Notes under the pieces: generated by a model
The model's database searches: none
What the model was told of the DNA's origin: nothing
Seen by the model: the letters and a program-made list of their open reading frames with translations, nothing else
Position numbers and translations under genes: made by a program
Shown: piece by piece, positions 24,837 to 39,993 of the stretch
How positions within the stretch are numbered: the stretch's first letter is position 1
Layout of the letters: the number at the start of each line of letters is the position of its first letter
Assembly: GCF_019308285.1 (NCBI RefSeq)
Contig: NZ_WWEM01000039.1
Span: 248,001-312,000, forward strand
Source of the DNA: Flavobacterium quisquiliarum
Lineage (GTDB): Bacteria; Bacteroidota; Bacteroidia; Flavobacteriales; Flavobacteriaceae
DNA length: 64,000 nt
Direction of reading: 5' to 3'

Positions 24837-25772
24837 TTATATTTTTTGTGATAATCGGTATGCTAAATCTTCAATATCATTGGATCTTGCCAAATTGTCA
24901 ATCCACTTTTCTGGAATATTTTCAATTCCGTAATAAATTCCTGCCAATCCTCCAGCAATTGCACCCGTTGTATCGGTATCTTCTCCTAAGTTAACTGCTT
25001 TTAAAACTGTTTTTTTATACGAATCAGAATTTAAAAAACACCAAAAACTGGCTTCTAAACTATGCAGTACATACCCAGATGCCCGAATTTCATTTTCAGG
25101 AAATGTCCAGATATCATTTTTCAATAGCTTTTCAAATAGTTGAATTTCGACAGGATTATATTTTTTATCTTCTAAAAACTTCGAAAGAACGTTTTGCATT
25201 TCTTTATAAGCTTCGAATTTATCTTTATCTTTTAAAATCTCCAAACAATATACAACATAAATAAAGCAGGCAAACCCTGAACGAAAATGAGCGTGTGTAA
25301 TTGATGAAACTTCTTTTACCTTTTTATAGATAACTTCAATATCATTCTCTTTCTGAAGATAAAAAACTAATGGCAAAATACGCATTAAAGAACCATTGCC
25401 ATTATCTTCTTCAAAAAAATTACCCGAATTTCTAGCTGATTCTCCTTTTACAACTCTTGCCAAAGAATGTTTTGTAGTGCCGCCAATATCAAATACTTTG
25501 TTATGCGCTCCCCAATATCCTTCCTGCATCCATTTTACAAAAGTCAGAGCCATATCTTCTATATCGTAACCTTTGCACAGACTTTCGGCAGTACAAAAAG
25601 CTAATGAACTATCGTCGCTAAATGTTCCAGGCGGCTGATTCCAGGACATAAACCCCATCATATCGACAACTGGATCCTGTTTTAATTTTTCTCTTGATTT
25701 AAATTCAACCGGAACGCCTAAAGCGTCGCCAATTGCCAAACCAAATAAACCTGATTCTATTTTATTTTTCAT
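24837..25772 (-). CDS. ADP-ribosylglycohydrolase family protein (DraG/ARH-like)
   Basis: A 311-residue all-helical ADP-ribosyl hydrolase. Metal-binding motifs are present: GDALGVPVEFKSRE (about 16), GTFSDDSSLAFCTAESL (about 50-66), and the C-terminal GEDTDTTGAIAGGLAGIYYG (about 258-277), whose two Asp and Thr hold the dimetal centre. Relatives remove ADP-ribose from Arg, Ser, nucleic acid or small molecules. It lies 13 bases before nadV and 17 after the deoxyribosyltransferase-like gene. Here it probably releases ADP-ribose for reuse or reverses a modification. Confidence 0.9.
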   Translation of the reverse strand: MKNKIESGLFGLAIGDALGVPVEFKSREKLKQDPVVDMMGFMSWNQPPGTFSDDSSLAFCTAESLCKGYDIEDMALTFVKWMQEGYWGAHNKVFDIGGTTKHSLARVVKGESARNSGNFFEEDNGNGSLMRILPLVFYLQKENDIEVIYKKVKEVSSITHAHFRSGFACFIYVVYCLEILKDKDKFEAYKEMQNVLSKFLEDKKYNPVEIQLFEKLLKNDIWTFPENEIRASGYVLHSLEASFWCFLNSDSYKKTVLKAVNLGEDTDTTGAIAGGLAGIYYGIENIPEKWIDNLARSNDIEDLAYRLSQKI

Positions 25773-25789: not shown

Positions 25790-26242
25790 TTAGTCAAGCA
25801 GATTTTGAATTAATTCGTCTAAAGTTTTAAACTGCTCCACTCCATATCTTTCGCAAACAATATCAATGTTTCCTTTACGCCAAAAATCTTCTTCCACAAC
25901 CACTTTCATCTTTTTAGATTGTGCATAAAGCCCAAATTCCAGTAAAGAAATAGGTGACATGGTATTGGCTACAAAATACATGATAATGATGTCGGCTTTT
26001 TCTAATGCATTAAGTTCCCAATTAACCTGCTCTTTAAAATTAGGATTTTCTATCGTTTGTGACCAACTGCTGTCCCATTCCTTTCTTCTGGGATTAAAAA
26101 TAATGTATTTGTCTTGCAACTGTTCTTCGCAATGTAATTGCCAGTTAATCGCTTTATCCATTTCTATAGAACCAGCTAAAAAAATGGTTTTGACATCATT
26201 CTGAAATGGTATTTCTTCGGGTGATCTAAAAATTCTTTTCAT
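25790..26242 (-). CDS. Nucleoside 2-deoxyribosyltransferase-like protein
   Basis: A 150-residue Rossmann-like protein: KTIFLAGSIEMDKAINWQ at the N-terminus, ADIIIMYFVANTMSPISLLEFGLYA in the middle, which contains the family's conserved Glu in an SxxxLxE-like helix. Such proteins cleave or exchange N-glycosidic bonds of (deoxy)nucleosides or of NAD/ADP-ribose-like molecules. It starts 2 bases after the phosphoesterase gene ends. Substrate unknown; a role in handling base-ribose bonds fits the island. Confidence 0.75.
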   Translation of the reverse strand: MKRIFRSPEEIPFQNDVKTIFLAGSIEMDKAINWQLHCEEQLQDKYIIFNPRRKEWDSSWSQTIENPNFKEQVNWELNALEKADIIIMYFVANTMSPISLLEFGLYAQSKKMKVVVEEDFWRKGNIDIVCERYGVEQFKTLDELIQNLLD

Positions 26243-26244
26243 GA

Positions 26245-26976
26245 CTATTTATTTCTTCCTTTTTCATTTGGATAAAATGTCTGCACAGCATCACTTTGCC
26301 AAAATTGCTTCGTTTCGACATCTATACAGCTCAACTTTCCATAAAAACCTGCTCCGGTATCTATGTTCCAAACATTGCATCCCTGCATTGGAATTTCGAC
26401 ATCATAATTTAATGTTGGCGTATGACCAATATAAATTTCATTAAAAAGCAATAATCTTTTTGGGTATAAAATGGAATTTTTCTGAATTCTTTTATCCATT
26501 GTCAGAGCCATTTCCCACAAAGTTCTATCCCATGAATAATTGGTTTTGTAATGTTCTTTTTCTGGCCCATGCATAGATGAAAATCCAGCATGAATAAACA
26601 AATTGTTGTTTTCGTCTACAAAATAATCTTTCATTGAATTGAAGAAATCACGATGTTTTTGTTTTTCTGAAAGTTCAATAGCATCATAACTTTCTATCGT
26701 TGATTTTCCTCCGTGCAGAAACCAAATATCGTTTATAACATCATTCTCTAACCATTCCTGACACCAGACATCATGATTTCCTTTGATAAAAATGCATTCT
26801 TGTTTTTGAGACAATTCAATGAGAAAATCAATCAGTTGTTTGGATTCGCTCCAACCGTCAACATAATCACCCAAAAAAACAAACTGGTCATTTTCTGAAT
26901 AATTGATTCTTTCTAATAACTGAATTAAGGCTTTTAATCCACCGTGAATATCTCCAAAAACTAGGGTTCTTTTCAT
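26245..26976 (-). CDS. PPP-type metallophosphoesterase
   Basis: A 243-residue calcineurin-like phosphoesterase with all core motifs: FGDIHGG (about 7), GDYVDGW (about 37), GNHD (about 63) and LFIHAGFSS (about 127), plus a late YIGHTPT His. The arrangement is closest to small PPP phosphatases such as the phage lambda and PrpA type, which act on phosphoproteins, but nucleotide or ADP-ribose phosphates are possible. It is separated by 2 bases from each neighbour, so it is firmly in the operon. Confidence 0.85.
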   Translation of the reverse strand: MKRTLVFGDIHGGLKALIQLLERINYSENDQFVFLGDYVDGWSESKQLIDFLIELSQKQECIFIKGNHDVWCQEWLENDVINDIWFLHGGKSTIESYDAIELSEKQKHRDFFNSMKDYFVDENNNLFIHAGFSSMHGPEKEHYKTNYSWDRTLWEMALTMDKRIQKNSILYPKRLLLFNEIYIGHTPTLNYDVEIPMQGCNVWNIDTGAGFYGKLSCIDVETKQFWQSDAVQTFYPNEKGRNK

Positions 26977-26978
26977 TT

Positions 26979-27521
26979 TTAAAACTCAATATATTTTGCC
27001 GGAACTTCATCTGTCAACCAGACATTGTTTTCGGATAAATAAAATTTAAATCCGTCTCTAAACATTTCCCCGCTTCTAACAGTTAAAATCTGAGGAATTC
27101 CTCTTCTGCTTCCTACTTTTGTTGCCGTTTCTTTGTCTTTGGAAAGATGAACATGCTGACGGCTCATTTTTTTCAAACCTTCATTTCTGATATTTTCCAT
27201 AAATTTTCCGACTGTTCCGTGGTACAAATATTCTGAAGGTTCTGTTTCTGCTAAGTCTAATTCAACCGAAATAGAATGTCCCTGACTTGCTCTAATTTTC
27301 GTTTTATCTTCGTTATAAGCGAAACGCTTTTTATCATTATTTTCTACAACATAATCCAAAAGTGCAGCATCGAGACGATTTCCTTTTTTAGTACATTTTG
27401 CTATTAATTCATTGACATCTGCCCAGCCATTCTCGTCTAATTTTAATCCGATTTTTTCTGGCGAATGTCTGAGCACCAGACTCAAAAACTTGCTGACGCT
27501 CTTTGCTATATTTTCATTCAT
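26979..27521 (-). CDS. kptA: RNA 2'-phosphotransferase (Tpt1/KptA)
   Basis: KptA moves a 2'-phosphate from RNA to NAD+, giving ADP-ribose 1'',2''-cyclic phosphate and nicotinamide; bacterial members can also act on ADP-ribosylated ends. The 180-residue protein keeps the known catalytic set: Arg-His in LVLRHSPEKIGL (about 15), Arg in IRASQGHS (about 74), and Arg in KVGSRRGIPQ (about 135). I start at the ATG at 27521 (MNENIAKSVSKFLS), the usual family start; an ATG at 27563, directly after the macrodomain stop, would add 14 residues. 2 bases separate it from the phosphoesterase gene. Confidence 0.92.
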   Translation of the reverse strand: MNENIAKSVSKFLSLVLRHSPEKIGLKLDENGWADVNELIAKCTKKGNRLDAALLDYVVENNDKKRFAYNEDKTKIRASQGHSISVELDLAETEPSEYLYHGTVGKFMENIRNEGLKKMSRQHVHLSKDKETATKVGSRRGIPQILTVRSGEMFRDGFKFYLSENNVWLTDEVPAKYIEF

Positions 27522-27563
27522 TTTAATTTTTTTTTCTACCTGTGAAATGTTCCGACGGAACAT

Positions 27564-28070
27564 CTACAAAAGTTTTTTGTAAATCTTGTAATTTTCATCA
27601 TCGAAGCAGACAAATATTACCTTTTCTATTTTTTCTGATTTATCGAAATCTTTTATCGTGTTTACTGCAATTTCTGCTGCTTTATCTTTTGGAAAATGAT
27701 AAATTCCAGTACTAATATTCGGAAAAGCAATAGATTTTATTCCATTTTGAATAGCCAGATTCAAACTATTTTTGTAACAGTCTGCTAACAATTTAGATTT
27801 CTCCTCTTTATCGCCATTCCAAACTGGGCCAACTGTATGAATAACATATTTAGATGGTAAATTTCCTGCCGTTGTGATAACCGCTTCACCTGTTTTACAA
27901 CCGCCCTGTTTATTTCGAATTTGAACACATTCTTCTAAAATTGCTTTTCCTCCTTTTCTATGAATTGCACCATCAACTCCGCCGCCGCCCAGTAAAGAAG
28001 TATTTGCAGCATTTACAATGGCATCAACATTAAGTTCAGTTATATCTGCTTTTAGAAGTTCTAAAATCAT
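27564..28070 (-). CDS. Macrodomain protein (O-acetyl-ADP-ribose deacetylase-like)
   Basis: A single 168-residue macrodomain of the MacroD/YmdB type. [20 protein letters not shown] (about 16-35) holds the Asn and Asp that bind the distal ribose, and [14 protein letters not shown] (about 118) forms the phosphate loop. Such enzymes remove O-acetyl or ADP-ribosyl esters and bind free ADP-ribose. Its ATG overlaps the previous gene by 4 bases, showing translational coupling. Confidence 0.93.
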
Positions 28071-28486
28071 TTTTTAAATTCATTTAATTTGTCCATTAGT
28101 CCAACATTTGAACTTACTTCTGAACGATCTGTGAAATGTACTTTTACTACTTCAATTTCACCAATAATATTAGAATTGAAATCATTTAAATCTTCAGACG
28201 GAATCCAAAGTTCATTGTGATTTTTATCGCCAACATTTTGGATTTCATACTTTTCTAGAAAAGAAGTTTTAACTTCAAAAGCAGTAATAATTCCAATAAA
28301 TCCTGAAAATTCATCAACGGTATTCCATTCAAAAGCAATTTGTTCTGCATATTGCTGATTCATTACCGGATAAAAAATAGGCTGCCATTCTAATCTCGGA
28401 GGAAAGGACTTGTAACCTAAATCTGCTATCAGTTCCATTTCTTTTAATCCAACAGGTCGATATAATCTTGTTGTATCCATAATCAT
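28067..28486 (-). CDS. Small protein of the family often named ADP-ribosylation/crystallin J1
   Basis: A 139-residue cytosolic protein. [34 protein letters not shown], and [20 protein letters not shown] are the conserved blocks of a small family that databases label ADP-ribosylation/crystallin J1, though it lacks the DraG fold motifs. Function is unproven. Its start directly abuts the NADAR stop and its end overlaps the macrodomain gene, so it is embedded in the ADP-ribose operon. An internal ATG two codons in (MDTT) is an alternative start. Confidence 0.75.
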
Positions 28487-29014
28487 TTATCTCAATTCAT
28501 CTCTAACTTCCATCAAAGCAAAACCCAACAAATTCAAACCTTTCCATTTTTCAGGATTTAGCGCCTGAGTATGATCGCTTGCCATTCCAATTCCCCAAAT
28601 TGGATCAACTGGACTTGCTTCTACAATAACTCTCTCGTTAGTGTTTAAAAGAAAGGTTTTCAAATCAGGATTTTGATTGAATTTGTGATAGTTTCCCTCT
28701 TTTACAATTTCAAATCGGTTTTCTAACCAAATTTTATCGTCGTAATTTCTCACTTTACGACCTAACTTTTTGGCTTCGGCTGGAGAATTGCATTTTATGA
28801 TTTTATCTAAAATTTCTTGGTCTTTGAATAATTCGGCTTTCTTTGCCATCATCCAGTGTTCCGCTGTCTTGTAGGTCACACCATTTTCTTGAAATGAACT
28901 TAACCACCATTGACTAAAGCAAGTTTTAGTAATCGTTCCGTCTTTACTTGGTTGATGTCCCCAGAAAAATAAAAACTTACTTTCCGGAGCTATAGTGTCT
29001 ATATTGTATTTCAT
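28487..29014 (-). CDS. NADAR family ADP-ribose glycosidase
   Basis: A 175-residue NADAR (YbiA-like) domain: FLFFWGHQPSKDGTITK, FSQWWLSSFQENGVTYKTAEHWMMAKKA (about 30-57) with the conserved Glu-His-Trp, and DPIWGIGMASDHTQALNPEKWKGLNLLG at the end. Recent work on the family reports removal of ADP-ribose from guanine bases in nucleic acids, and the related plant and bacterial domains act in riboflavin repair. It lies 9 bases after the PurA-like gene. In this operon, removal of ADP-ribose from DNA or RNA is the likeliest role. Confidence 0.9.
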   Translation of the reverse strand: MKYNIDTIAPESKFLFFWGHQPSKDGTITKTCFSQWWLSSFQENGVTYKTAEHWMMAKKAELFKDQEILDKIIKCNSPAEAKKLGRKVRNYDDKIWLENRFEIVKEGNYHKFNQNPDLKTFLLNTNERVIVEASPVDPIWGIGMASDHTQALNPEKWKGLNLLGFALMEVRDELR

Positions 29015-29023
29015 TTTTTCTAT

Positions 29024-30112
29024 TTATTGAAACAAAGAAGTAATTTCTTTAAAATCTTTTGAATCGGGCGAAAATGATCCGTAAATAGAATTAAAATCCG
29101 TTGTCAGTTTTTCAAATTCATACTCTTTTTCAAGCTGATCCATGCAGGTTACTACCAAATTTCTTTTTACCATTGGACTATAAGCCGCATCTAATTTTAA
29201 AGCATAATTCAACAAATCGTAATCCAGATCCCCAAATCTGAGCTGTTTTTGATATTCGTTGAAAACACAGGTTTCTTCTTCGTTATTTTTTAATTGTATT
29301 TCTCTTTCATTCGGCATCCAGCCATGTCCGTGCCTTGTGGTGTAACTTCTGGTTATATAATAAATTTCTACTGCTTCGACCTTCAGTTTATTGCAGATTT
29401 CAACTGCATTTTTTGAAGTTGTACTGGCATAGGTCACATTTGGAAAAACGCCGTGATCCATGTCAAGCAGTATTCCCTGGCTTCCTTCAAAAATTAAATT
29501 ATCGTATTTTGATAGGAAAGTATAATCGGCAATATTCCAATTTATGTTATCAACTGCCTCTAGATAAGCCTGAATTTCTTCGTCGATTCCACTTTCATTT
29601 AAAAATCCATAGTAGTATGCGATTTGGTTTAACTTTTCTAAAAGCATTTCTCGGGGCGCAATCAAGTCTATGGCAAACAATTTATATGGCCCTTCGTTTC
29701 TTTTCATGGTTGAACCAATGCCTTTTCCACAGGTTCCGTGATCAATATTTCTCACATTTCCTCGATTGTGCCAAACATCAAAAGGAGTAGTGACTTTTGC
29801 TAAGGGATGAATGTATAAATCCAGATTAGCGTTTTTTTCTTTCAATTCTTCTCTTTCATTAAATAAAAAAAGCGGATGAATTGTACAGTGTTCACTGTAA
29901 TAAGAGGGAAGTCCTCGTAACGCACCACTGGCAAAACTAGAATGAACGTGTTTTTGATTGCCAATCATAACCGTATGCGCCGCCTGCTGTCCTCCCGAAA
30001 ACCGAATAACTATAGATTCAGGATTTTGTTTTGCCAGAAAATCTGTTGTTATTCCTTTTCCTTCATCACCAAATCCTAAACCTATAACTATTTGTGCTGT
30101 TTTCATTTTCAC
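29024..30112 (-). CDS. Short adenylosuccinate synthetase paralogue (PurA-like)
   Basis: A 362-residue protein, about 70 residues shorter than usual PurA. The P-loop region VIGLGFGDEGKGITTDFLA keeps the catalytic Asp, and GGQQAAHTVMIG keeps the catalytic His, although canonical GGNNAGH has changed to GGQQAAH. DHGTCGKGIGSTMKR and LIFEGSQGILLDMDHG match later PurA motifs. PurA joins aspartate to IMP using GTP; the altered pocket and shortened C-terminus suggest another nucleotide substrate. It is not PurZ-like at the catalytic Asp. ATG 30112 or 30106 could start it. A repeat element lies upstream. Confidence 0.8.
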   Translation of the reverse strand: MKMKTAQIVIGLGFGDEGKGITTDFLAKQNPESIVIRFSGGQQAAHTVMIGNQKHVHSSFASGALRGLPSYYSEHCTIHPLFLFNEREELKEKNANLDLYIHPLAKVTTPFDVWHNRGNVRNIDHGTCGKGIGSTMKRNEGPYKLFAIDLIAPREMLLEKLNQIAYYYGFLNESGIDEEIQAYLEAVDNINWNIADYTFLSKYDNLIFEGSQGILLDMDHGVFPNVTYASTTSKNAVEICNKLKVEAVEIYYITRSYTTRHGHGWMPNEREIQLKNNEEETCVFNEYQKQLRFGDLDYDLLNYALKLDAAYSPMVKRNLVVTCMDQLEKEYEFEKLTTDFNSIYGSFSPDSKDFKEITSLFQ

Positions 30113-30282: not shown

Positions 30283-31158
30283 TTAAAGCATTTCTATACT
30301 ATCTAAACCTGTGTCGTTTGTATCAGAAACTGGTATAGTCCCTAAACCTGAACCTGAATTTTTATGTTTATCGCAGATGATTTTCTTGATTACATTTGGA
30401 ATTTCCCTGTGATCTTCTATTGATAAACAGTTTTGTCCTAACAATTCTTTCCATTCCACATCGGCATTAATCGCTTGTCCTGAATGCAAGACACTGATAT
30501 GATATACATCGTATCTTTTTTGCGCTTCTGCCAATAATTCAAGATGTGTATAAGTCTGCTGTCCCTGACCCATAATTTCTTTAATTGCTGATGCAGGAAG
30601 TGTTTTTAAACCTGGCTCATCACCTACTGTAAACAACAATCCTTTTTGCCCTCTTTTTTCGAAAGCATCTGTTTTGGTATGAAAGGCTGCGAAATACCAC
30701 GCTAAAAGATAACTTTCGCCGGCATTTCCTCCTCCTCCACCTTCAATATAAGTTCTTGTCAACCACATATCCAGCTCTTCGTCACCAGATTCAAATTGCC
30801 CTACTTGCAAAGGATATCTGTCACATTCGTGATCTCCGATTCCTAAGAATAAAAGTGCCGGATCCGGAACTCCGCCTTGAATAATTCCTCCCATTAATTT
30901 TGGAAGTCCTTCTTTTATCAGTTCATGCGGAATATGCCCCATACTTCCTGTAACGTCCAGTCCTAAAATAATTGGAACTGTATTGGGATGAACTTCTGAA
31001 TCTCTCGCTTCTCTAAAAACCACTCCATTCGGATTCATAGATTCATGCGCCATTCTTAGTGCATTCTGTGTAAATATCTCGCTAGCTGATTTGCTGGCAT
31101 ATCCTACTTTTTTTGCTCTGTCTTCACGAGCCCCGAAATCATATCTTGTACCTCCCAT
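30283..31158 (-). CDS. von Willebrand factor A domain protein
   Basis: A 291-residue cytosolic protein with a vWA fold: IILGLDVTGSMGHIPHEL (about 67-84) holds a variant MIDAS (DxTGS), and GLLFTVGDEPGLK (about 181) the acidic loop. A glycine run (GGGGGNAGE) precedes helix 4. vWA proteins build metal-dependent complexes and often partner kinases, phosphatases or ATPases. The N-terminus has REDRAKKVG, nearly the same as REDRAKTIG in the upstream partner gene, which ends 2 bases before this start. Confidence 0.8.
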   Translation of the reverse strand: MGGTRYDFGAREDRAKKVGYASKSASEIFTQNALRMAHESMNPNGVVFREARDSEVHPNTVPIILGLDVTGSMGHIPHELIKEGLPKLMGGIIQGGVPDPALLFLGIGDHECDRYPLQVGQFESGDEELDMWLTRTYIEGGGGGNAGESYLLAWYFAAFHTKTDAFEKRGQKGLLFTVGDEPGLKTLPASAIKEIMGQGQQTYTHLELLAEAQKRYDVYHISVLHSGQAINADVEWKELLGQNCLSIEDHREIPNVIKKIICDKHKNSGSGLGTIPVSDTNDTGLDSIEML

Positions 31159-31160
31159 GA

Positions 31161-31493
31161 CTAAAATGTTTTACCAAATAAATACTCAAATCTCTTTTTT
31201 GTTACTTCAAACTGGATATTCAAATTTCTGATGGTCAGCGCAAGCTCCATATCTTTTTGTACAAAAGCTTCTGGCTGAAAATCGGCAAAGGTTAAACTGT
31301 TTTTATCCAGCGGACTAATATCGATCAATCCTTCTTGTTCTCTTTCGAGTCTTTTTATTTTTAATTCGATATCTTCGACTCTTCGTCTGTATATTAATTC
31401 TGAATCCTCACCAATTGTTTTGGCTCTGTCTTCTCTAATCTGATCATTGTTTCTTCTTAAAGATTCAATAAATCTTGGTTTTAAATCGCTCAT
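31161..31493 (-). CDS. Small coiled-coil protein partnered with the vWA protein
   Basis: A 110-residue protein with a strongly charged helical N-terminal half (RRNNDQIREDRAKTIGEDSE, then RRRVEDIELKIKRLEREQE), probably a coiled coil, and a C-terminal helical segment. No family recognised. The gap to the vWA start is 2 bases, and the two share a nine-residue motif, so they are likely to act together. Confidence 0.65.
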   Translation of the reverse strand: MSDLKPRFIESLRRNNDQIREDRAKTIGEDSELIYRRRVEDIELKIKRLEREQEGLIDISPLDKNSLTFADFQPEAFVQKDMELALTIRNLNIQFEVTKKRFEYLFGKTF

Positions 31494-31641: not shown

Positions 31642-32475
31642 TTAAACTAATTGATCCAATCCGATCACTTGAACACTTTCGCCTTCAAAGTCTTTAAAAG
31701 AGTTCGTTGTAAAAATGCCGTCAAAGCAATTTAAAACTTCGAAACCTTTATTGAAAATTCCGTGGCTTACGGCTAAGTACAGTTTTCCTGCATTTTTCTT
31801 TTTCAATTCTTCGGCAAGACCAACAAAGGTTCCGCCTCCGTCACATATATCATCTACAATTAAGCAATCCATTCCCTGTAAATCCTCTTCGTACACTTTA
31901 AATCCAGATAATTTTCCTGTTTTTACATCTCGGCTTTTACTGCATTCTACAACCTCAACACCGCCTAAAAATTCAGAAACTTTGTAGATTTTCTTTAAAG
32001 CGCCTCCATCCGGAGAAATCAATTTTACGTTCTGACCAATTTTATTTAGCACTTCTTTGATAAAAGTATAGTTCGGGATTACAGTACTATTATTCAATAA
32101 AGCCGGAGTTACTTCAGAGTGTGCATCAAAAACAAACACTTTATTCAATTTCATGGCATTGATAATGTCTGCGTACACCTTTACAGATAAAGGTTCTCCA
32201 GGAATCATAACACGATCTTGTCTCGCAGCAGGGAAGTACGGAATAAAAAGATCGATGATCTTAACGTCCATTCTGCGTAACGCATCAACTGTGATACACA
32301 ACAAACCTAAATCGTTGAATGAATTCAATCGGTGTGTAATCGTTACTTTCTGATTCACATCAAAATCCGGATTGATTTTAATGTGCGGTTCTCCGCCAGA
32401 AAATGTAAAACTTTGAAATTTGATTTCTTCCTGATTTTGAATCGGAGCGAATTTTGGGTCGAGATTTAGTATCAT
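31642..32475 (-). CDS. Ribose-phosphate pyrophosphokinase homologue (PRPP synthetase-like; possible ADP-ribose pyrophosphate synthetase)
   Basis: A 277-residue protein, shorter than housekeeping Prs (about 310). LFIPYFPAARQDRV (about 78) matches the canonical IPYxxYARQDR block, VFDAHSEVTPAL (about 115) the metal-binding DxH, and LIVDDICDGGGTFVGLAEEL (about 210) the PRPP loop. In true Prs the loop is DDxxDT(A/G)GT; here the Thr that holds ribose 5-phosphate is Gly (DGGGT). Phage Adps enzymes are annotated the same way but pyrophosphorylate ADP-ribose. Paired with the NAMPT homologue in this operon, an Adps role is a serious option. An NrtR-type operator and promoter sit immediately upstream. 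Confidence 0.85.
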   Translation of the reverse strand: MILNLDPKFAPIQNQEEIKFQSFTFSGGEPHIKINPDFDVNQKVTITHRLNSFNDLGLLCITVDALRRMDVKIIDLFIPYFPAARQDRVMIPGEPLSVKVYADIINAMKLNKVFVFDAHSEVTPALLNNSTVIPNYTFIKEVLNKIGQNVKLISPDGGALKKIYKVSEFLGGVEVVECSKSRDVKTGKLSGFKVYEEDLQGMDCLIVDDICDGGGTFVGLAEELKKKNAGKLYLAVSHGIFNKGFEVLNCFDGIFTTNSFKDFEGESVQVIGLDQLV

Positions 32476-32486
32476 AGTTTTTTTAG

Positions 32487-32507
32487 TTTGCGTTAATTAT
32501 ACGCAAA
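32487..32507. promoter_or_regulatory. Putative NrtR operator 1
   Basis: A 21-bp dyad with arms TTTGCGT and ACGCAAA around TAATTAT. It overlaps the -7 element and predicted start site of the minus-strand promoter, an arrangement for repression. The regulator gene lies 6.7 kb upstream in the same direction. Confidence 0.65.
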
Positions 32508-32538: not shown

Positions 32539-32559
32539 TTTGTGTAAAAATTACGCAAA
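32539..32559. promoter_or_regulatory. Putative NrtR operator 2
   Basis: A second 21-bp dyad with arms TTTGTGTAA and TTACGCAAA, centred 52 bp (about five helical turns) from operator 1 and just upstream of the -33 element. The shared consensus is TTTGYGTW...TACGCAAA. Confidence 0.6.
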
Positions 32560-32567
32560 GTTATAAT

Positions 32568-35500
32568 TTAAGATTCTTTAAAATATTCTTTTGCCAGTTT
32601 TTGGGCTATTAATTTTCGTTTTTCTTTTATCGCATTATCCTCACTATCAAAAGTTTTAACCATTTTTTGTCCTTTGGTTCCTATTCTTCCGTACTGCACA
32701 ATAATATTTTTATCCTGTTGGCTTATTTCCCAAAATTTATTACTTCCGTTTGAAGTATTAAGGTATCTTTCAAAAACAACATTTCCGTTTAAATCCTGAT
32801 TTTGGTTTTCTACTTCAATGGTTTCAATGTCTGTATTTAAACTTTCTATTTCTTCTTCTTCAAAGAAATATTCGTTTTTAAGTGCCGCACCGATCATTTT
32901 TAAAACTCTTGGTTTGTTTTCTATCCAGTCTTTGATGTAAATCTGACAGACATTCCAGCCGTTGTTTTTTAGAATTTCTGGTCTCAAAAGATATTGCTCC
33001 AAAATATCGTCATTGGCATAATGAACATGGTCATCAATCATAATTCCTAAAACAAATTCTTCGTCTTCGTCTGTTTTTTTGATTCCCAAATGGCATTTAA
33101 ATTTACTCTGACCTACATTTTTAACTGTAGAATAGCCCATTTTAGAAATCTCATCCTGAATTTGATCGGCAATGATGCTCGAAGTTGCAGTGTTATTTTT
33201 ATTGTTAATAGAATTCAGAACATTATTAGCGGCTTCTACTTGTCCTAAACTAACCAATTCGGCATATTGAAGATATTTTCTAAAATAATTAGCCCCTTCA
33301 TTGTATTCGTTTTTAATGTCAAAATATTTGATCGAACTTACAACGCACATGCTTTTCTTTGCTCTGGAAAAAATAACATTCAAACGTTTTTCCCCGCCGC
33401 GTTTGTTGATCGGACCAAAATTCATCAGCATTTTGCCATTAGGATTATAACCAAAACAGGTACTCATAATAATAATGTCACGTTCATCACCTTGTACATT
33501 TTCCAGATTTTTGACAAAAAGCCCCACAAATTGATTGTTTTCAATTCGTTTATATTCTTCTTCCAATAAGTTTTCAAAAACTTTATCATCTATACAAAGT
33601 GCTTCAATAGCAGTTTCAATTTCGTTTTGCTGTTCCATTGAAAAAGCGACAATTCCTATACTCTGTTCTTTATTCTGCATTAAAATTTCGCGAACTATAT
33701 TGGCAATATACTGTGCTTCTAATGTATTTGAACGATTATTATAAACACCATTTTTAATATAATGATACGATATCGGTTTAGAAAAAAGCTGTTCTAAATT
33801 AGCTTTCGCATCTTGTACCTTTTCAACAATAATAGGTTCAGAAAATTTACTATGATCTTTTAAATCTGGAATTGTAAGCAGCTTACTATCATAAAAAGAA
33901 GCATTTGAGAAACCAATTAGCGCCTCATGTTTACTGCGATAATGCCATCCTAGCATAATAGACGGAAATTTTCGCGCGCCTTGTGTCAGGAAACTATCGG
34001 CATCCAAAGAAAAATAATCATCATCTTCTTCTGTAGCATCTTTCCATAAATCATCTTGATTTCCTGATGAACTGCCAAAGAAATTACTTGGAGGCATCTG
34101 CATTTCATCACCTACAATAATGGTTTGTTTGGCTCTATAAATCGGCACAAGTCCTTCTTCAAGTGTAATCTGGCTCGCTTCATCAAAAATTACGACATCA
34201 AAATAGTTTTCGTTTACAGGTAAAGTATCCGAAACGCTCAATGGACTCATTAACCAAACGGGTTTTATTTCTCGGATAATTTGTCCTGAATCTGAAGAAG
34301 CTAAATCACGTATTGATTTAAATCTGATGCTCTTGCTGAATTCATTTTCCAGAATTTTTCTTCCTTCGGTTATTGATTTTTTTGCTTCTTTTTGATCTGC
34401 CGTCATTCCGGAAACAGACATCTCTGAAGTTAAAATCAGTTCTTTAAGATTACTGATTTGTTTCGCAACAATATATTTCCCATTCAATTCTAATAAATCG
34501 GCATACCTTTTTTTTATCCTTTGAATGGAAGTATGCAGCATATCCATGTTGAATTTTTTATGCGTATAATTTATAGCATAATACTTTTCTAATGATCTTT
34601 CCGCCAAAGTAATTTTGAGATGTTCAAGCGGGATTTTCTTTGTCTTTAACAACTGAATTACAGACGGATTTAAATCTTGAATTTCATCAAAAAAAGAAGC
34701 ATATAAATCAAAATAAATCTTTTTGGAATTGATCGCAGTTATCTCATTTTCTATCTCTGATAAACTTAAATTTTCATAATTTTCGATGCTGTTAACTAAA
34801 GAAGAACTTACTTTTAAAAATAAATTCTTGAGCTCTACAACTTCTTTTCTTTCTGATTTCTCTAATTTTTCGCCAAACTTTAAAATCGTTTCATCCAGTT
34901 CTTTCTTAATCGTTTCGGTATGGTATTTCAATTCAAATAAATCACCCAGATTATATTTGCCTTCGAAATCAGTTTTTAAAGTATTGAACTTTTCTTCCTG
35001 TTCAAACTGAGCACAATAATTCTCTAGAACAACAACCAAACTCGGTTTTACAGCATGTTTATTGATATCGTAAACAGCAAGAATCTCATTTTTTGCTTTT
35101 TTATAATCTGAATTTATAAAATTAAAAAAACTGTTTTCGTTCTTTCTGATTATTTCTAAAGCGTTTTTAGCATCGGTTTCAGATATATTCGTTTTCCAAT
35201 ACGGATATTGTTTGGCAGACTTTTCGATGTCATTTCTTAATTTTAATAACGTCTGAACATCGTTTTCCAGCGATCTGAAAATACTGCTGTTCGGCTCTAA
35301 TAATTCGGCCATATTAGCGTCAAAATAGACAAAAGTTGCCATTGCTCTGCGCAAGAATTTCTGAAGCTCAAAAAAGGTATCTATTTCTGGTGGAATGGAA
35401 ATAAAATCTAATCGTTCTGAAATATTTTCTAATATCTCCTGACTGTTTTCGAGATCATTTTTTAAGTCAGATATGTTCTTGTAATTATGGAATACATTTG

Positions 35501-37973
35501 TTTTAAAAAAACGGAAAGGATGCACAGAAAAAAACTCAGATTGATTGGTTTCCAGATTTATCGCATACCATTTCTGTAAAACTTCCTGATTTCTATTCCA
35601 GTCCTGCAAACCAGCTTTATCATCCAGGGTATTAAGATTATCTAATAAAGCTTTGTGTGTACTAGAAACTAAAACATCAAAAAGAGATTTAATGGTCAGA
35701 TTGTTTTCGGCATCAATTTCTGCATTCATAAAATCATGAAAAGATGCTACTTTATTAATTTCATTATCAATTTCGCGAACCAGTTTTACGCGGTTATCTG
35801 CTATTGCTTGAAATTTGTTTTTAGAAGCCGTAAAATCGTTGAATGTCTTTTTTAAATCTAAAATGAACTCTTTTTTATCGGCTTGAGAATCGTGAATCAA
35901 ACAGCATAAATCGTCTAATCCCTGATTTTTTAAGCGATAAAAAACCACATCGAGCGCGGCACGTTTCTCGCAGACAAACAGTACTTTTTTCCCTCGGGCA
36001 ACATAATTAGCAATTAAATTGGCAATAGTTTGCGATTTTCCGGTTCCTGGCGGTCCTTGAATAATATAACTTTCGCCGGTTTCAGAATATTTTACCGCAT
36101 TGTTTTGTGTCGGGTCACTCGCCACAACATTAAACGTTTTGGTAAAACTATTTCCTGATTCCAGTTCGTTTTTAAAATTTTTCTGCGCTAGAGAATCAAA
36201 CAGATTTTTGAAAACATTACTTTCTATATCGCTCTCAATAACCTGATTGTAATCGCGCACAAGAGACATTTTTTTATAATTAAAATTACCCAGAATCAAA
36301 TTACAGGTATCAAACTCCCAGCGAAAAGGATTTATATCACCTTCGTCAAGTTGGTAAAACTCTCTTTCTATCGTTTTGTTTTCATTAAAAAAATGCGCAT
36401 TTCTTTTTATATCACTATTTATCAAATATTCTAAAGAAGAAGCATGTGTAAAAACATAATTACGAAATAACTCTAACCCATACGGCTGAAAATTTTCCTG
36501 CTGATACGAATAACTCAAACTGCGCTGATCCTGAATTGCTTGTTTCTTTTTTGAGCGTTTATTAAACTGTGTCAGAATTTGTTTGGCCTGAGAATAGATT
36601 AGTTTAATTTTGGGTTTGTCAATATAATCCAAAACAATTCCTGAATTGTTTTTTTCAACCTGCACACGCAATAATTCATAAACCGATTCGATTTTAGTTT
36701 CAGAAAGCTGAATTCTTTCTGGAAGTCGAATGTCGTATAATTCTTTGAGGACATTTGCCAGAACTGGATTTACCTCAACTTCAGAATCCAGAAATTCTAA
36801 AGAATATTGATCTTTCAAGCCTTTTTTCTTTGTAAGTGTTACAGAGGCCAAAAGCAAAGGCGAAACTATTTTCTCTGAACTATTTTCTTTTGTGTTAAAC
36901 CAGTTCAGATTACAAATAACCAATTTTAACTGGCTGAAACCATATTCATTAATATCTTTATTGGCTTCTAAACGTATTTTATCGAGAGTGGGCACAATAT
37001 ACGTATTGTCTCCAATTTCTAAATATTTATTAAGCGAAATAGTACTGGTTTTGCTTATTTTATTTGATATTTCCTCATTCCAGTAGAAAATAGAATTCGG
37101 ATCGATATTTTTATAATCTAAAGCTTGCGGTACGGAAGAAACCGTAAGATTTAAGAATTTTAAATTGGGCTGAAAGTATAAAAGTCTGTTGCGTTTGCTG
37201 TTATCAAATAATCTATTACGGAGTTTTTCGTGAATAAACTGTTTTTTATTCTGAACTTTAGAATCAATCAGACTCGATAAATCGTATTCATTTTCAGGAT
37301 CGTAATCTCTGTAATTTTTAAGTTTTTCGATTACTTCATTAACATCTTTCCATCTTTTATTTCGGTTTAATTCGGTCATTCCGAGAATAATATTCGCAAT
37401 TGCAGGATTTATTTTACTGTTAAGAAAATACATTTTCTTGCGGTATTCTACAAAACGCTTTACATCGTCAAGAACTGTAAAATCAAATTGAAGCGTGATA
37501 CTGGCCAAAATCATTCCCAAAACAAAAATATCCGTTACAGGATCATGATGCCCAAATTCAAATTCAAAACAGCCGTAATCTTTTACATAAATAGCTTTTT
37601 TAGTATTTGTTTCTTCGTTTTCCGAAACACTTTTATCACCAAATTCACTTACTACATTCTCGCCTATCTCAGTTGTATTATAATGAAGTCCTGAAATTTC
37701 GAATGCCTTGCTTTTACTAGTAAACAATTCCTGAATTGGTTTCAAATTTTGTTTTACTTCAAATGCATTATCGGCAATATGAAGGTGTCCGTTTTCGATA
37801 TAAATCGAAGAAATATTGTCTAGCGAGGCTACTTTTCCCTGATTATGGATAGCAGAAACTGTTTTTAGTAAAGGCAGTATTATCGCAATAATATCATCGC
37901 TTGAAAATGTCCCTTTTTGAAAATTTTCGGAAATGAATTCGTAAAAAGCTGATTCTTTTATTGGTGCAGCCAT
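32568..37973 (-). CDS. Kinase-like / COG1112-type SF1 helicase / nuclease-like / WGR fusion protein
   Basis: An 1801-residue protein. The first 235 residues look like a protein-kinase C-lobe (TVSAIHNQGKVASLDNISSI, DPVTDIFVLGMILASITL, ELNRNKRWKDVNEVIEKL) without a Gly-rich loop and with no HRD, so probably a pseudokinase. A DUF4011-like region follows. The helicase has Walker A QGPPGTGKSQT (about 635), Walker B VIFDEASQIT (about 1263), QGDERDIIIMST (about 1496) and RLNVIFSRAKKS (about 1534). Residues about 1600-1700 resemble the MTES_1575/DUF559 nuclease, but the first catalytic Asp position reads FKCHLGI. A WGR domain (about 1735-1800), typical of PARPs, ends the protein. Kinase plus COG1112 helicase recalls Mokosh MkoA. 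The gene is 1 base from the upstream protease gene. Confidence 0.85.
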   Translation of the reverse strand: MAAPIKESAFYEFISENFQKGTFSSDDIIAIILPLLKTVSAIHNQGKVASLDNISSIYIENGHLHIADNAFEVKQNLKPIQELFTSKSKAFEISGLHYNTTEIGENVVSEFGDKSVSENEETNTKKAIYVKDYGCFEFEFGHHDPVTDIFVLGMILASITLQFDFTVLDDVKRFVEYRKKMYFLNSKINPAIANIILGMTELNRNKRWKDVNEVIEKLKNYRDYDPENEYDLSSLIDSKVQNKKQFIHEKLRNRLFDNSKRNRLLYFQPNLKFLNLTVSSVPQALDYKNIDPNSIFYWNEEISNKISKTSTISLNKYLEIGDNTYIVPTLDKIRLEANKDINEYGFSQLKLVICNLNWFNTKENSSEKIVSPLLLASVTLTKKKGLKDQYSLEFLDSEVEVNPVLANVLKELYDIRLPERIQLSETKIESVYELLRVQVEKNNSGIVLDYIDKPKIKLIYSQAKQILTQFNKRSKKKQAIQDQRSLSYSYQQENFQPYGLELFRNYVFTHASSLEYLINSDIKRNAHFFNENKTIEREFYQLDEGDINPFRWEFDTCNLILGNFNYKKMSLVRDYNQVIESDIESNVFKNLFDSLAQKNFKNELESGNSFTKTFNVVASDPTQNNAVKYSETGESYIIQGPPGTGKSQTIANLIANYVARGKKVLFVCEKRAALDVVFYRLKNQGLDDLCCLIHDSQADKKEFILDLKKTFNDFTASKNKFQAIADNRVKLVREIDNEINKVASFHDFMNAEIDAENNLTIKSLFDVLVSSTHKALLDNLNTLDDKAGLQDWNRNQEVLQKWYAINLETNQSEFFSVHPFRFFKTNVFHNYKNISDLKNDLENSQEILENISERLDFISIPPEIDTFFELQKFLRRAMATFVYFDANMAELLEPNSSIFRSLENDVQTLLKLRNDIEKSAKQYPYWKTNISETDAKNALEIIRKNENSFFNFINSDYKKAKNEILAVYDINKHAVKPSLVVVLENYCAQFEQEEKFNTLKTDFEGKYNLGDLFELKYHTETIKKELDETILKFGEKLEKSERKEVVELKNLFLKVSSSLVNSIENYENLSLSEIENEITAINSKKIYFDLYASFFDEIQDLNPSVIQLLKTKKIPLEHLKITLAERSLEKYYAINYTHKKFNMDMLHTSIQRIKKRYADLLELNGKYIVAKQISNLKELILTSEMSVSGMTADQKEAKKSITEGRKILENEFSKSIRFKSIRDLASSDSGQIIREIKPVWLMSPLSVSDTLPVNENYFDVVIFDEASQITLEEGLVPIYRAKQTIIVGDEMQMPPSNFFGSSSGNQDDLWKDATEEDDDYFSLDADSFLTQGARKFPSIMLGWHYRSKHEALIGFSNASFYDSKLLTIPDLKDHSKFSEPIIVEKVQDAKANLEQLFSKPISYHYIKNGVYNNRSNTLEAQYIANIVREILMQNKEQSIGIVAFSMEQQNEIETAIEALCIDDKVFENLLEEEYKRIENNQFVGLFVKNLENVQGDERDIIIMSTCFGYNPNGKMLMNFGPINKRGGEKRLNVIFSRAKKSMCVVSSIKYFDIKNEYNEGANYFRKYLQYAELVSLGQVEAANNVLNSINNKNNTATSSIIADQIQDEISKMGYSTVKNVGQSKFKCHLGIKKTDEDEEFVLGIMIDDHVHYANDDILEQYLLRPEILKNNGWNVCQIYIKDWIENKPRVLKMIGAALKNEYFFEEEEIESLNTDIETIEVENQNQDLNGNVVFERYLNTSNGSNKFWEISQQDKNIIVQYGRIGTKGQKMVKTFDSEDNAIKEKRKLIAQKLAKEYFKES

Positions 37974-37974
37974 C

Positions 37975-39177
37975 TTAATAAGTATTTTCGAGATCAGATT
38001 GTAAAATAGTGTTTAATGTCGCAGTACACTTTTGACTAAAAGTTTTATACGTCTTGTCAGTGAGATTTAATTCCTTTTTCAAAATCACCTTTATCTCCTC
38101 TTCAAGTCCTAATTGTTCAGAAATATCCAAAATATGCCCTATAAATGCTTCCTTGAGATCAGGATCGCATAGTGCAAAATCCAGCATTACATAACCATAG
38201 TACTCTTTTAGATTTTTCCTGCTGTTTTCTATTTTTAGTTTGAATGTCTCATCAATAATAATATCATTTTTTCTGTCTGCATTAGAAAAATACTGTTTGT
38301 ACATCGCAATACAATATTCAGATTGTGCCCATTTTGGTTTTAAAATAATCGATATTAATTCTTTTGTTACATCAAAAACCAATTTTTTGGTAAATAAATT
38401 TAATTGATGAAGATCGATTTTGCCTGAAATAATTTTCTCTGTTTTAGAATAAAAATTGGCATTATCATTTTGAAAAATTTCTAATGACTTAGCACGAATA
38501 AAATTTTCGGGATGTGTTTCGCCTTCTGAACCTTTTTGGATTCTTTCGAGAATTTCGTCGGCTTGTTTTAAATAACTTTGGGCAGAAACTTTTTCTAAAC
38601 CTGTATTCAATTTAACCAAAGTTTCAATTGTAGTTTCCAGACTTCCGCTCACTTTTAGCGCGCCGAGATCACAAAATAATTCAGTATAAAGCTGATATAA
38701 TCTGGATGTTTCGTAATAAAACAATTCACTTTTAGGATCGCTGGCAATAGTATTTATGATTCTGTTTGTGATTTCAAAATCGCCATTTTCTAAATTAAAA
38801 AGCAAAATATGCGACAATTCATGCCCGAATAAAACCAGTAATTCCTCCTCATTCAGCAATTTTAAAATAGTTCCGGAAAGAATAATATGTGCTTCTTTTT
38901 CAAAAAAAACAACTCCTGCATTATTGCCATCCATAGATTGCGACTGATAAATCGTAATCGGAATAATAATCCCCAATTTATCTTTTGCAACTTGTAAAAT
39001 TTCATACACTTTTGGTTCCGTCTGCGGATCTATGCGATAGGAATTTTTTAGTAAATCGGTTTTGTATGCTTCTTGTTGTTCTACTTTTACTTTTTCTTCA
39101 GAGAACCAAGACCATGTTTTATCTTGTTTCTTGAAATAATCTCTTAAATCAGAATGAAACGGAAATGGTTTAATCAT
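37975..39177 (-). CDS. Soluble M48-like HExxH metalloprotease
   Basis: A 400-residue protein without signal or membrane segments. LFGHELSHILLFN (about residue 118) is the HExxH zinc site, and the downstream ELFCDLGALKVSG (about 167) supplies the Glu/Asp helix of M48 peptidases. The C-terminal 200 residues are helical with no recognised domain. M48 enzymes usually cleave membrane-associated proteins; a soluble one next to a large helicase looks more like a switch or effector protease. It starts 9 bases after the nrtR stop and ends 1 base before the helicase start. Confidence 0.8.
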   Translation of the reverse strand: MIKPFPFHSDLRDYFKKQDKTWSWFSEEKVKVEQQEAYKTDLLKNSYRIDPQTEPKVYEILQVAKDKLGIIIPITIYQSQSMDGNNAGVVFFEKEAHIILSGTILKLLNEEELLVLFGHELSHILLFNLENGDFEITNRIINTIASDPKSELFYYETSRLYQLYTELFCDLGALKVSGSLETTIETLVKLNTGLEKVSAQSYLKQADEILERIQKGSEGETHPENFIRAKSLEIFQNDNANFYSKTEKIISGKIDLHQLNLFTKKLVFDVTKELISIILKPKWAQSEYCIAMYKQYFSNADRKNDIIIDETFKLKIENSRKNLKEYYGYVMLDFALCDPDLKEAFIGHILDISEQLGLEEEIKVILKKELNLTDKTYKTFSQKCTATLNTILQSDLENTY

Positions 39178-39186
39178 AATGTTATT

Positions 39187-39879
39187 TTAAGCAAATTTTA
39201 TTTCGAAATGAAAGCCGTCTTTTGCCAAATCATTATATTTCTTCTTATTAAATCGAAATAATTTGGCAGGACGTCCTGTTTTTATTGGCGAATAATTTTC
39301 TGTTTCTTCTACAATTCCAAAACTGAGTATTTTTTTTCGGAAATTACGACGTTCTATTTCTTTTTCTAAAATGGTACAATAAAGATTCTCAAGATCTGAA
39401 AAAAGGAATTCTTCCGGTAATAAATCGAAGCCAATTGGTTCGTAAGTCAATTTTGCTTTCAATCTTTCAATTCCTTTTTGAAGTATACTATTATGATCGA
39501 ATGCCAAAGGTGGAATTTCATCAATCTTAAACCATTGTACTCTTTCAGCATCTGTATCTGCTTTGATTTCTAAATTGGAAGCATCTACTAAAGCATAATA
39601 AGCAACAGAAATTACACGGTTTCTGGAATCTCTGTAAATATCATCTCCAAAAGTATATAACTGTTCCATAAACGTAAGCTGTACATTGGTTTCTTCGTGC
39701 AGTTCCCGAATAACCGCATCACTCAGAGATTCTGAATTCTGAACTAAACCGCCCGGTAAAGCCCAATATTTTTCTGAAGTTCCAAATTGCTGTTCAATCA
39801 ATAACGCATACAAATCATTGTTTTTATAACCAAAAACAATCGCATCAACCGCAATTCTAATATTTTGCAAATTTTCCAT
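39187..39879 (-). CDS. nrtR: NrtR-type Nudix transcriptional regulator
   Basis: A 230-residue protein: an N-terminal Nudix domain (about 8-140) and a C-terminal winged helix (about 155-230). The Nudix box GGLVQNSESLSDAVIRELHE, followed by ETNV, keeps G-x5-E-x7-REUxEE with Asn in place of the last Gly. ILSFGIVEETENYSPIKTGR and PAKLFRFNKKKYNDL match the DNA-binding part of NrtR. NrtR proteins repress NAD+ salvage genes and let go when ADP-ribose binds. Here it is the first gene of the island and probably controls the operators at 32487-32559. Its own -7 element may be TATATTTG on the minus strand (39906-39899). Confidence 0.88.
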   Translation of the reverse strand: MENLQNIRIAVDAIVFGYKNNDLYALLIEQQFGTSEKYWALPGGLVQNSESLSDAVIRELHEETNVQLTFMEQLYTFGDDIYRDSRNRVISVAYYALVDASNLEIKADTDAERVQWFKIDEIPPLAFDHNSILQKGIERLKAKLTYEPIGFDLLPEEFLFSDLENLYCTILEKEIERRNFRKKILSFGIVEETENYSPIKTGRPAKLFRFNKKKYNDLAKDGFHFEIKFA

Positions 39880-39912: not shown

Positions 39913-39965
39913 GAGAGTCAATTTTATAATCTAATGCAAAAGCATAAATTATAAAACTGACTCTC
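39913..39965 (-). terminator. Long hairpin between the PKD lipoprotein gene and nrtR
   Basis: An 18-bp near-perfect stem (39913-39930 with 39948-39965, one mismatch) topped by TAATGC/GCATAA. It lies 28 bases after the PKD gene stop on the minus strand. There is no strong T-run, so termination is probable but not certain. Confidence 0.45.
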
Positions 39966-39993
39966 ACTAAATATCTTTTTCTTTTTCGGTTAT

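Follow-up and report, generated by a model that had tools for sequence, protein, structure and literature searches.

A candidate host-owned NARP1 pathway under predicted NrtR control, with a variable ADP-ribose cassette, in Flavobacterium quisquiliarum

Described systems and the layout of the locus

NARP1, the pathway formed by Adps and Namat, has been described from phage SPbetaL1 and is already known in a bacterial form, that of Paenibacillus foliorum, for which activity has been shown in vitro as well as in E. coli. The accessible text of that 2026 paper states that the physiological role of bacterial NARP1 needs more study and uses as its criterion that adps lies within 10 genes of namat, with the counting method left unstated there (PMC12774641). 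In the accessible part of a 2026 preprint, a phage NARP1 operon carries an inserted gene, RyDEP, which produces ADP-ribose and is shown to feed NARP1 (PMC13232231). On the host side, Iyer et al. 2022 predicted ARG-centric systems with Nudix- or WYL-type regulators, in which variable modules surround a core; in the text of section 3.8, which names actinobacteria, planctomycetes and proteobacteria, neither a Prs nor a NAMPT homologue comes up, and phosphatases are the proposed next step for ADP-ribose once it is released (PMC9503650).

We analyzed a 64,000-nt stretch of Flavobacterium quisquiliarum contig NZ_WWEM01000039.1, hereafter the window. In it, the genes from 39879 down to 23354 follow one another on the minus strand, a run that we read as one predicted operon. 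Intergenic gaps within the run measure 92, 148, and 170 bp, all others being at most 17 bp, and further promoters may lie in those of 148 and 170 bp. The features are as follows, in the order of the run.

39187-39879, minus strand: nrtR, putative regulator (Nudix domain and NrtR winged helix)
37975-39177, minus strand: M48-type peptidase, accompanying the helicase gene
32568-37973, minus strand: 1801-aa protein with DUF4011, SF1 helicase, MTES_1575 nuclease and WGR parts, related to Hhe/ProA/PDC-S37
32539-32559, no strand: distal 21-bp palindrome TTTGTGTAAAAATTACGCAAA (plus-strand reading), candidate NrtR operator, 52 bp from the proximal one
32487-32507, no strand: proximal 21-bp palindrome TTTGCGTTAATTATACGCAAA (plus-strand reading), candidate NrtR operator near the adps start
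31642-32475, minus strand: adps, Adps-type (ADP-ribose pyrophosphate synthetase) member of the Prs fold, 277 aa, assigned by tree, residues and AlphaFold2 model
31161-31493, minus strand: 110-aa protein, family not assigned, trio member
30283-31158, minus strand: 291-aa protein, vWA-like by eye only (DVTGSMG), trio member (PHROG 2971)
29024-30112, minus strand: adenylosuccinate synthetase-like protein, member of the fixed trio (PF00709)
28487-29014, minus strand: NADAR domain (PF08719)
28067-28486, minus strand: 139-aa protein, predicted ADP-ribosyltransferase fold, without Pfam, NCBIfam or PHROG match
27564-28070, minus strand: macro domain (PF01661)
26979-27563, minus strand: KptA/Tpt1 RNA 2'-phosphotransferase (PF01885)
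26245-26976, minus strand: calcineurin-like phosphoesterase (PF00149)
25790-26242, minus strand: nucleoside 2-deoxyribosyltransferase-like protein (PF15891)
24837-25772, minus strand: ADP-ribosylglycohydrolase (PF03747)
23354-24823, minus strand: namat, Namat-type nicotinamide ADP-ribose transferase, 489 aa (clamp GSFTYQYNTRD from residue 386; 625 bits to 9W5X/9W5W)

The first-pass annotation had placed a 277-residue Prs homologue at 31642-32475, in one operon with the NAMPT homologue. The coordinates are right, the gene lying on the minus strand, and both genes fall within the predicted operon. That annotation did not include nrtR, the palindromes, the variation of the cassette or the published activity of a bacterial NARP1. 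Between the upstream PKD-domain gene and nrtR lies an imperfect long inverted repeat (approximately 39915-39967), perhaps a terminator, which is also present at a number of Flavobacterium loci.

The window resembles the NARP1 of SPbetaL1 and P. foliorum in both genes, their signature residues, and their direction; it differs in adding a variable ADP-ribose cassette between the genes, an NrtR gene, and twin palindromes (compared with PMC12774641, as far as its accessible text goes). With the systems of section 3.8 of PMC9503650 it has in common a Nudix-HTH regulator, ADP-ribosylglycohydrolase, phosphoesterase, macro, NADAR, and helicase/nuclease proteins, and perhaps vWA, whereas its conserved pair would make NAD+ from ADP-ribose rather than leave it to phosphatases. 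The RyDEP operon, as its preprint describes it, also has an ADP-ribose-producing gene within NARP1, but it belongs to a phage, inserts one gene, and concerns cyclic ADP-ribose signals, whereas the window carries several host eraser families. In the open-licence PMC literature we found no paper that joins NARP1, NrtR, and an eraser cassette, parts of which may be covered by the NARP1 discovery paper, by Rodionov 2008 on NrtR, and by de Souza and Aravind 2012 on NAD networks. What appears to be new here is regulated, host-owned NAD+ recycling.

Family placement of Adps and Namat

The protein encoded at 31642-32475 matches Prs in Pfam, NCBIfam, and the PDB, with a stronger match to PHROG 619 (265 bits). 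E. coli Prs is the top fold match of its AlphaFold2 model (pLDDT 93.2), and all of the best 50 of 1383 fold matches are Prs. PADLOC found no match on namat and, on adps, no more than a weak overlap with PsyrT (43 residues).

The first-pass annotation had drawn attention to an altered PRPP loop, VDDICDGGGT (residues 207-216), and proposed that the Thr lost from it normally contacts ribose 5-phosphate (R5P). The first point holds and the second is supported. We aligned 31 housekeeping Prs with 54 Adps-type proteins (27 viral and 27 others), and the column of E. coli Prs T225 is Thr in 31/31 of the former and 0/54 of the latter, a difference beyond chance, with the 27 viral rows circular for the loop because the search pattern contained it. 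We therefore discarded the viral loop counts as evidence; in the 27 non-viral rows the column reads Gly 23, Arg 2, Phe 1, and Tyr 1. T225 and T228 are listed among the R5P contacts of E. coli Prs (PMC9232217, accessible text). The search for relatives was not seeded with the loop, and DGGGTF stands at this place in 80/80 Flavobacteriaceae loci and 9/9 distant loci. Elsewhere in the alignment, E. coli A132 is replaced by Ser and L229 by Phe in all 54 Adps-type proteins, Phe at 229 also occurring in one of the 31 housekeeping Prs. The equivalents of E. coli R96, R99, H131, D170, K194, R196, D220, and D221 are kept in Adps. The window protein thus retains the catalytic residues of the Prs type and has lost the R5P-loop Thr, a combination that is a pattern derived here and not a published definition, and it has neither the DT(A/G)G(T/S) loop nor the Prs-clade placement of housekeeping Prs. 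The gene is under purifying selection (median dN/dS 0.051, 64 pairs).

In a careful tree of 50 rows, which include E. coli, Mycoplasmopsis, Bacteroidota and one archaeal Prs, the window protein and SPbetaL1 Adps fall into one clade (support 100/99), outside the housekeeping Prs clade (98/95), as the first-pass annotation had suspected. The bacterial Adps sequences form their own group, and a topology joining them with Prs is rejected (p-AU 0.00018), the group for this test having been chosen after the tree was seen. When the loop columns are removed, the split between the 54 Adps-type and 31 Prs sequences stays at 100. The Adps branches are long, and long-branch joins are flagged in the trees. 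The stretch KxRDxxTGE was ruled out as Adps-specific, as it is present in the archaeal Prs 4twb; archaeal Prs are sampled in the tree by one sequence, which has this stretch in common with Adps. We also dropped pairwise identity as an argument, since 30% to SPbetaL1 Adps barely differs from 28% to the genome's own Prs, and the case for Adps therefore rests on the tree, the residues, and the partner. Together these support an Adps-type protein, set apart from housekeeping Prs.

Among NAMPT structures, the partner encoded at 23354-24823 scores 625 bits against 9W5X/9W5W, 470 bits against 9ke8, and approximately 243 bits against entries such as 2gvg, which we take to be human NAMPT. The top-scoring 9W5X/9W5W are SPbetaL1 Namat, whose adenine clamp is described as R40, F392, Y396, T398, and D400, with the consensus GSX(phi)X(phi)X(phi)TRD (PMC12774641, accessible text). 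All five residues are identical in the window protein, and its stretch GSFTYQYNTRD agrees with the published consensus. The 86 bacterial Namat rows read GSFTYQYNTRD in 82 cases and GSYTYQYNTRD in two, and two are cut there. Ordinary NAMPTs carry GG(A/G)LLQ...RD at the clamp (8/8 from Bacteroidota and 3/3 distant phage NAMPTs fetched), a motif absent from the window protein. The Arg at the column of the SCL stacking residue (Arg40 in SPbetaL1) is a weak indicator, being Arg in 4/11 ordinary NAMPTs also, and the D400 column is Asp in 11/11, so F392, Y396, and T398 bear the distinction (the T398 column is Thr in 1/11). The Adps clade and the clamp in the partner support the NARP1-type pairing that the first-pass annotation had suggested. 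Namat retains PRPP activity in vitro according to the accessible text of PMC12774641, so that NMN could still be formed.

The two proteins occur together. Adps (E ≤ 1e-25) was found in 15 of 296 Bacteroidota genomes and Namat (78-100% identity) in the same 15; eight other genomes have an ordinary NAMPT (36-37% identity), none of them with Adps. A survey of the order, which overlaps with the first and, like it, is rich in genomes of one genus, found Adps in 30 of 395 genomes and a Namat-type NAMPT (52-100% identity) in all 30; a 31st Adps match (G673) is only a fragment at a contig end. Five of these 30 pairs are distant, with Adps at 35-39% and Namat at 52-58% identity. Housekeeping Prs is present in 61/61 sampled genomes. 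As the F. quisquiliarum genome itself has one separate housekeeping Prs, one further NAPRTase, and two NadA matches, Namat is probably dispensable for basic NAD+ supply.

A conserved frame, its cassette and the candidate operator

We compared 90 loci: 80 named ones, all from Flavobacteriaceae (the best 80 of 125 relatives), nine distant genomes, and a Persicobacter plasmid. Their shared frame runs from NrtR through adps and the cassette to namat. NrtR precedes adps in 90/90, although these are not 90 independent cases, as the 80 named loci all come from close relatives within the Flavobacteriaceae. Downstream of adps, a same-strand Namat gene is reached in 82/90; in the other eight the fetched stretch stops before a complete Namat, with a partial Namat at its end (L012, L047, L059, and L083), Namat further on (L112 and L114), or the end ahead of any Namat (L041 and L043). 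In one of the 82 runs, that of L057, a 91-codon ORF lies on the opposite strand. Each run was taken only as far as its first Namat, and a terminal position of Namat is not part of the claimed frame.

What lies inside the frame is variable. Ten genes separate adps from namat in the window, over approximately 7 kb, a distance that reaches approximately 16 kb among relatives (G490), whereas three minimal loci (L117, L120, and L264) consist of NrtR, Adps, and Namat with no gene in between. The 82 complete loci show 72 distinct arrangements, or 48 if the comparison is limited to the kinds of gene present in the window; a previous tally of 73, based on gene length, was superseded when families were lumped. 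At least one of NADAR, KptA, ADP-ribosylglycohydrolase, macro, and the 139-aa protein is present in 74/82 and none in 8/82, with NADAR in 70 loci, KptA in 63, ADP-ribosylglycohydrolase in 41, macro in 27, and the 139-aa protein in 12. Further clusters, scanned by one representative each, with several small ones outside the scan or without a match, include a second ADP-ribosylglycohydrolase (24 loci), DUF4291 (18), microbial PARG (16), and another macro protein (six); a macro-like protein under the Pfam cut-off occurs in 18. Single cassettes hold genes of NAD+-consuming enzyme families, namely RES domain genes (L067 and L082) and Sir2 (L113). A 2OG-Fe(II) oxygenase of approximately 186 aa, with no obvious ADP-ribose role, is found in nine cassettes (L029 and eight others).

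Some genes move as units. The trio of 110-aa, 291-aa vWA-like, and adenylosuccinate synthetase-like proteins is complete in 37/82 loci and entirely absent from 45/82, and PHROG matches for two of its proteins point to phage relatives. The M48 peptidase and the 1801-aa protein are present or absent together; 11/82 complete loci have them, placed between nrtR and adps. Against NCBIfam cut-offs the 1801-aa protein reaches 639 of 1500 bits for ProA and 441 of 2000 bits for Hhe, which marks it as a relative, rather than a member, of these anti-phage families. The model of the 139-aa protein (pLDDT 86.3) resembles RhsP2 (Z 8.6), with Tpt1, ParT, RES, and PARP at Z of at most 7; the best Foldseek E value is 5e-3, none being below 0.001. 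Its gene adjoins the macro gene in 12/12 complete loci that have it, but not in all incomplete loci, and by its modeled fold the protein may form a writer-eraser pair with the macro protein.

The window NrtR, adjacent to NAD genes, combines Nudix and NrtR winged-helix domains and scores 77 bits to the NrtR winged helix versus 57 bits to AraR_C. NrtR of M. smegmatis binds its site and is released by ADP-ribose (PMC6800001), while NrtR-family proteins can sense other ligands, arabinose among them (PMC4666351), according to the accessible texts. Counting inverted repeats blindly in the regions upstream of nrtR gave nothing clear at first; the motif TGYGTA-N5-TACRCA, a 17-bp core, was derived from these regions. 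It matches the 6.17-Mb genome exactly at one place, ahead of adps. Its reversed control pattern likewise has one place, so the argument for the palindromes is their position and not their rarity. With up to one mismatch, the window holds two matches, both before adps, where 0.24 are expected; 3/100 shuffles reach two.

We extended the core to a 21-bp form, TTTGYGT-N7-ACRCAAA. Allowing at most two mismatches of 14 within 130 nt of adps, exactly two sites stand before adps in 91/91 regions, compared to at least one site in 61/5000 random stretches of the same loci. Both window palindromes are perfect matches. At no more than one mismatch, 86/90 loci keep both sites and 4/90 one, and 176 of the 184 sites in the 90 loci stand before adps. 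Among 87 phage-type loci (80 viral, six phage, and one Paenibacillus plasmid), no 21-bp site lies near adps at up to two mismatches; 12/87 have one somewhere at that threshold and 0/87 at up to one mismatch. NrtR probably binds the twin palindromes before adps. An operator upstream of nrtR was dropped for the window: the strict motif occurs no more than 60 nt from nrtR in 16/91 upstream regions, and at the window nrtR promoter, which carries another sequence, it was not found. Autoregulation is therefore not claimed for the window.

The eight ordinary NAMPT genes of Bacteroidota offer a comparison. NrtR neighbors 6/8 of them, as it does the window pair, and NadM is present at 6/8 loci (two being the queries' own), whereas a search for NadM in the 90 fetched Adps stretches gave only two weak partial matches (L264 and L116), both overlapping nrtR. 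This lack fits the Adps/Namat chemistry, because a direct NAD+ route needs no NadM. The order at L263 is NrtR, palindromes, NadM-Nudix, NAMPT, and a canonical Prs (DTAGT); L262 has two palindromes, NadM-Nudix, NAMPT, and then relatives of the 139-aa protein and KptA. The palindromes are perfect at only 3/8 loci (L261, L262 with its two, and L263), have one mismatch at L258 and two at L257, and were not found at up to two mismatches in L256, L259, and L260 (3/8). Judged by gene content, a PRPP route is naturally swapped for the predicted ADP-ribose route at NrtR-linked loci.

Proposed pathway, alternatives and implications

We consider it highly probable that the locus is a host-owned NARP1 pathway under NrtR control. 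Behind this reading stand the family placement of the two proteins, their active-site and clamp residues, the order and co-occurrence of the genes, the paired palindromes, and fetched stretches free of NadM. Adps would transfer pyrophosphate from ATP to ADP-ribose, and Namat would join the resulting ADP-ribose pyrophosphate to nicotinamide, yielding NAD+ in a single step that would need no NMN adenylyltransferase; the pair should thus rebuild NAD+ directly from ADP-ribose and nicotinamide. ADP-ribosylglycohydrolase, macro, NADAR, and KptA with the phosphoesterase would act on proteins, nucleic acids, and small derivatives to free or process their ADP-ribose, thereby supplying Adps with substrate. 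The first-pass annotation had proposed such a source within the operon, and the gene context of the 74 cassettes with ADP-ribose enzymes fits it. NrtR on the two palindromes would repress the operon until ADP-ribose, or a close derivative, rises; as Adps would use up the inducer, a negative feedback loop would be closed.

A more conventional account is that Adps is a diverged PRPP synthetase and its partner an ordinary nicotinamide phosphoribosyltransferase, forming a PRPP-based salvage unit that ends in NMN. It would suit the Prs fold and the retained catalytic residues, the annotation of the phage homologues as Prs and NAMPT, and L263, where a true PRPP version, complete with ordinary Prs, NAMPT, and NadM, adjoins an NrtR gene. 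We regard it as very unlikely, given the loss of the R5P-contacting Thr from 54/54 Adps-type rows (the viral half circular, as above), the separate Adps clade, the Namat clamp in the partner, fetched stretches with nothing beyond two weak partial NadM matches, and a housekeeping Prs already in the genome. Phage origin must also be weighed, as 1489 phage records match Adps at E ≤ 1e-5 and 75/80 viral loci have a Namat-family frame in the fetched stretch; the locus would then be a prophage remnant in the chromosome, a phage-derived NARP1 serving phage anti-defence rather than the host. The NrtR gene and the palindrome pair, which is absent near adps in the 87 phage-type loci, the retention of adps under purifying selection across many Flavobacterium species and other families, and the separate bacterial Adps group in the tree disfavor this origin and make it least probable of all.

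A third account, which we think doubtful, lets the pair use both ADP-ribose and R5P/PRPP and makes the cassette the main function, a clean-up against toxins or phage transferases with NAD+ return as a by-product. The PRPP activity of Namat in vitro (PMC12774641) and the clean-up systems with Nudix regulators proposed by Iyer 2022 (PMC9503650), each as given in the accessible text, speak for it. The clean-up genes vary, however, and are absent from the three minimal loci, where nrtR, adps, and namat stay. NAD+ return therefore looks like the core, a view biased by the gathering of loci via adps.

For the host-owned pathway that we favor, the physiological use would be to restore NAD+ spent in ADP-ribosylation, in RNA 2'-phosphate repair, or in NADase-based immunity. 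More speculatively, and with considerable doubt on our part, the operon might be a self-contained, ADP-ribose-induced ADP-ribosylation cycle, with NAD+-consuming transferases (KptA and the predicted one at 28067-28486), erasers, an ADP-ribose sensor, and a recycler. Such a cycle would help the cell to withstand NAD+-cleaving or ADP-ribosylating attacks, whether its own or foreign, and host operons of this kind might be the ancestors of phage NARP1.

The operon offers a concrete role for bacterial NARP1, that of regulated recycling of ADP-ribose freed by erasers. It amounts to a testable circuit of one sensor, two sites, and two enzymes, of which the minimal loci are natural versions and for which the NrtR-linked operons with PRPP, NAMPT, and NadM are a natural control. 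Our analysis suggests that the gene names "Prs" and "NAMPT" are misnomers at such Flavobacterium loci, and renaming would matter for NAD+ models of Flavobacterium and for scans in which NARP1 is taken as a sign of phage anti-defence.
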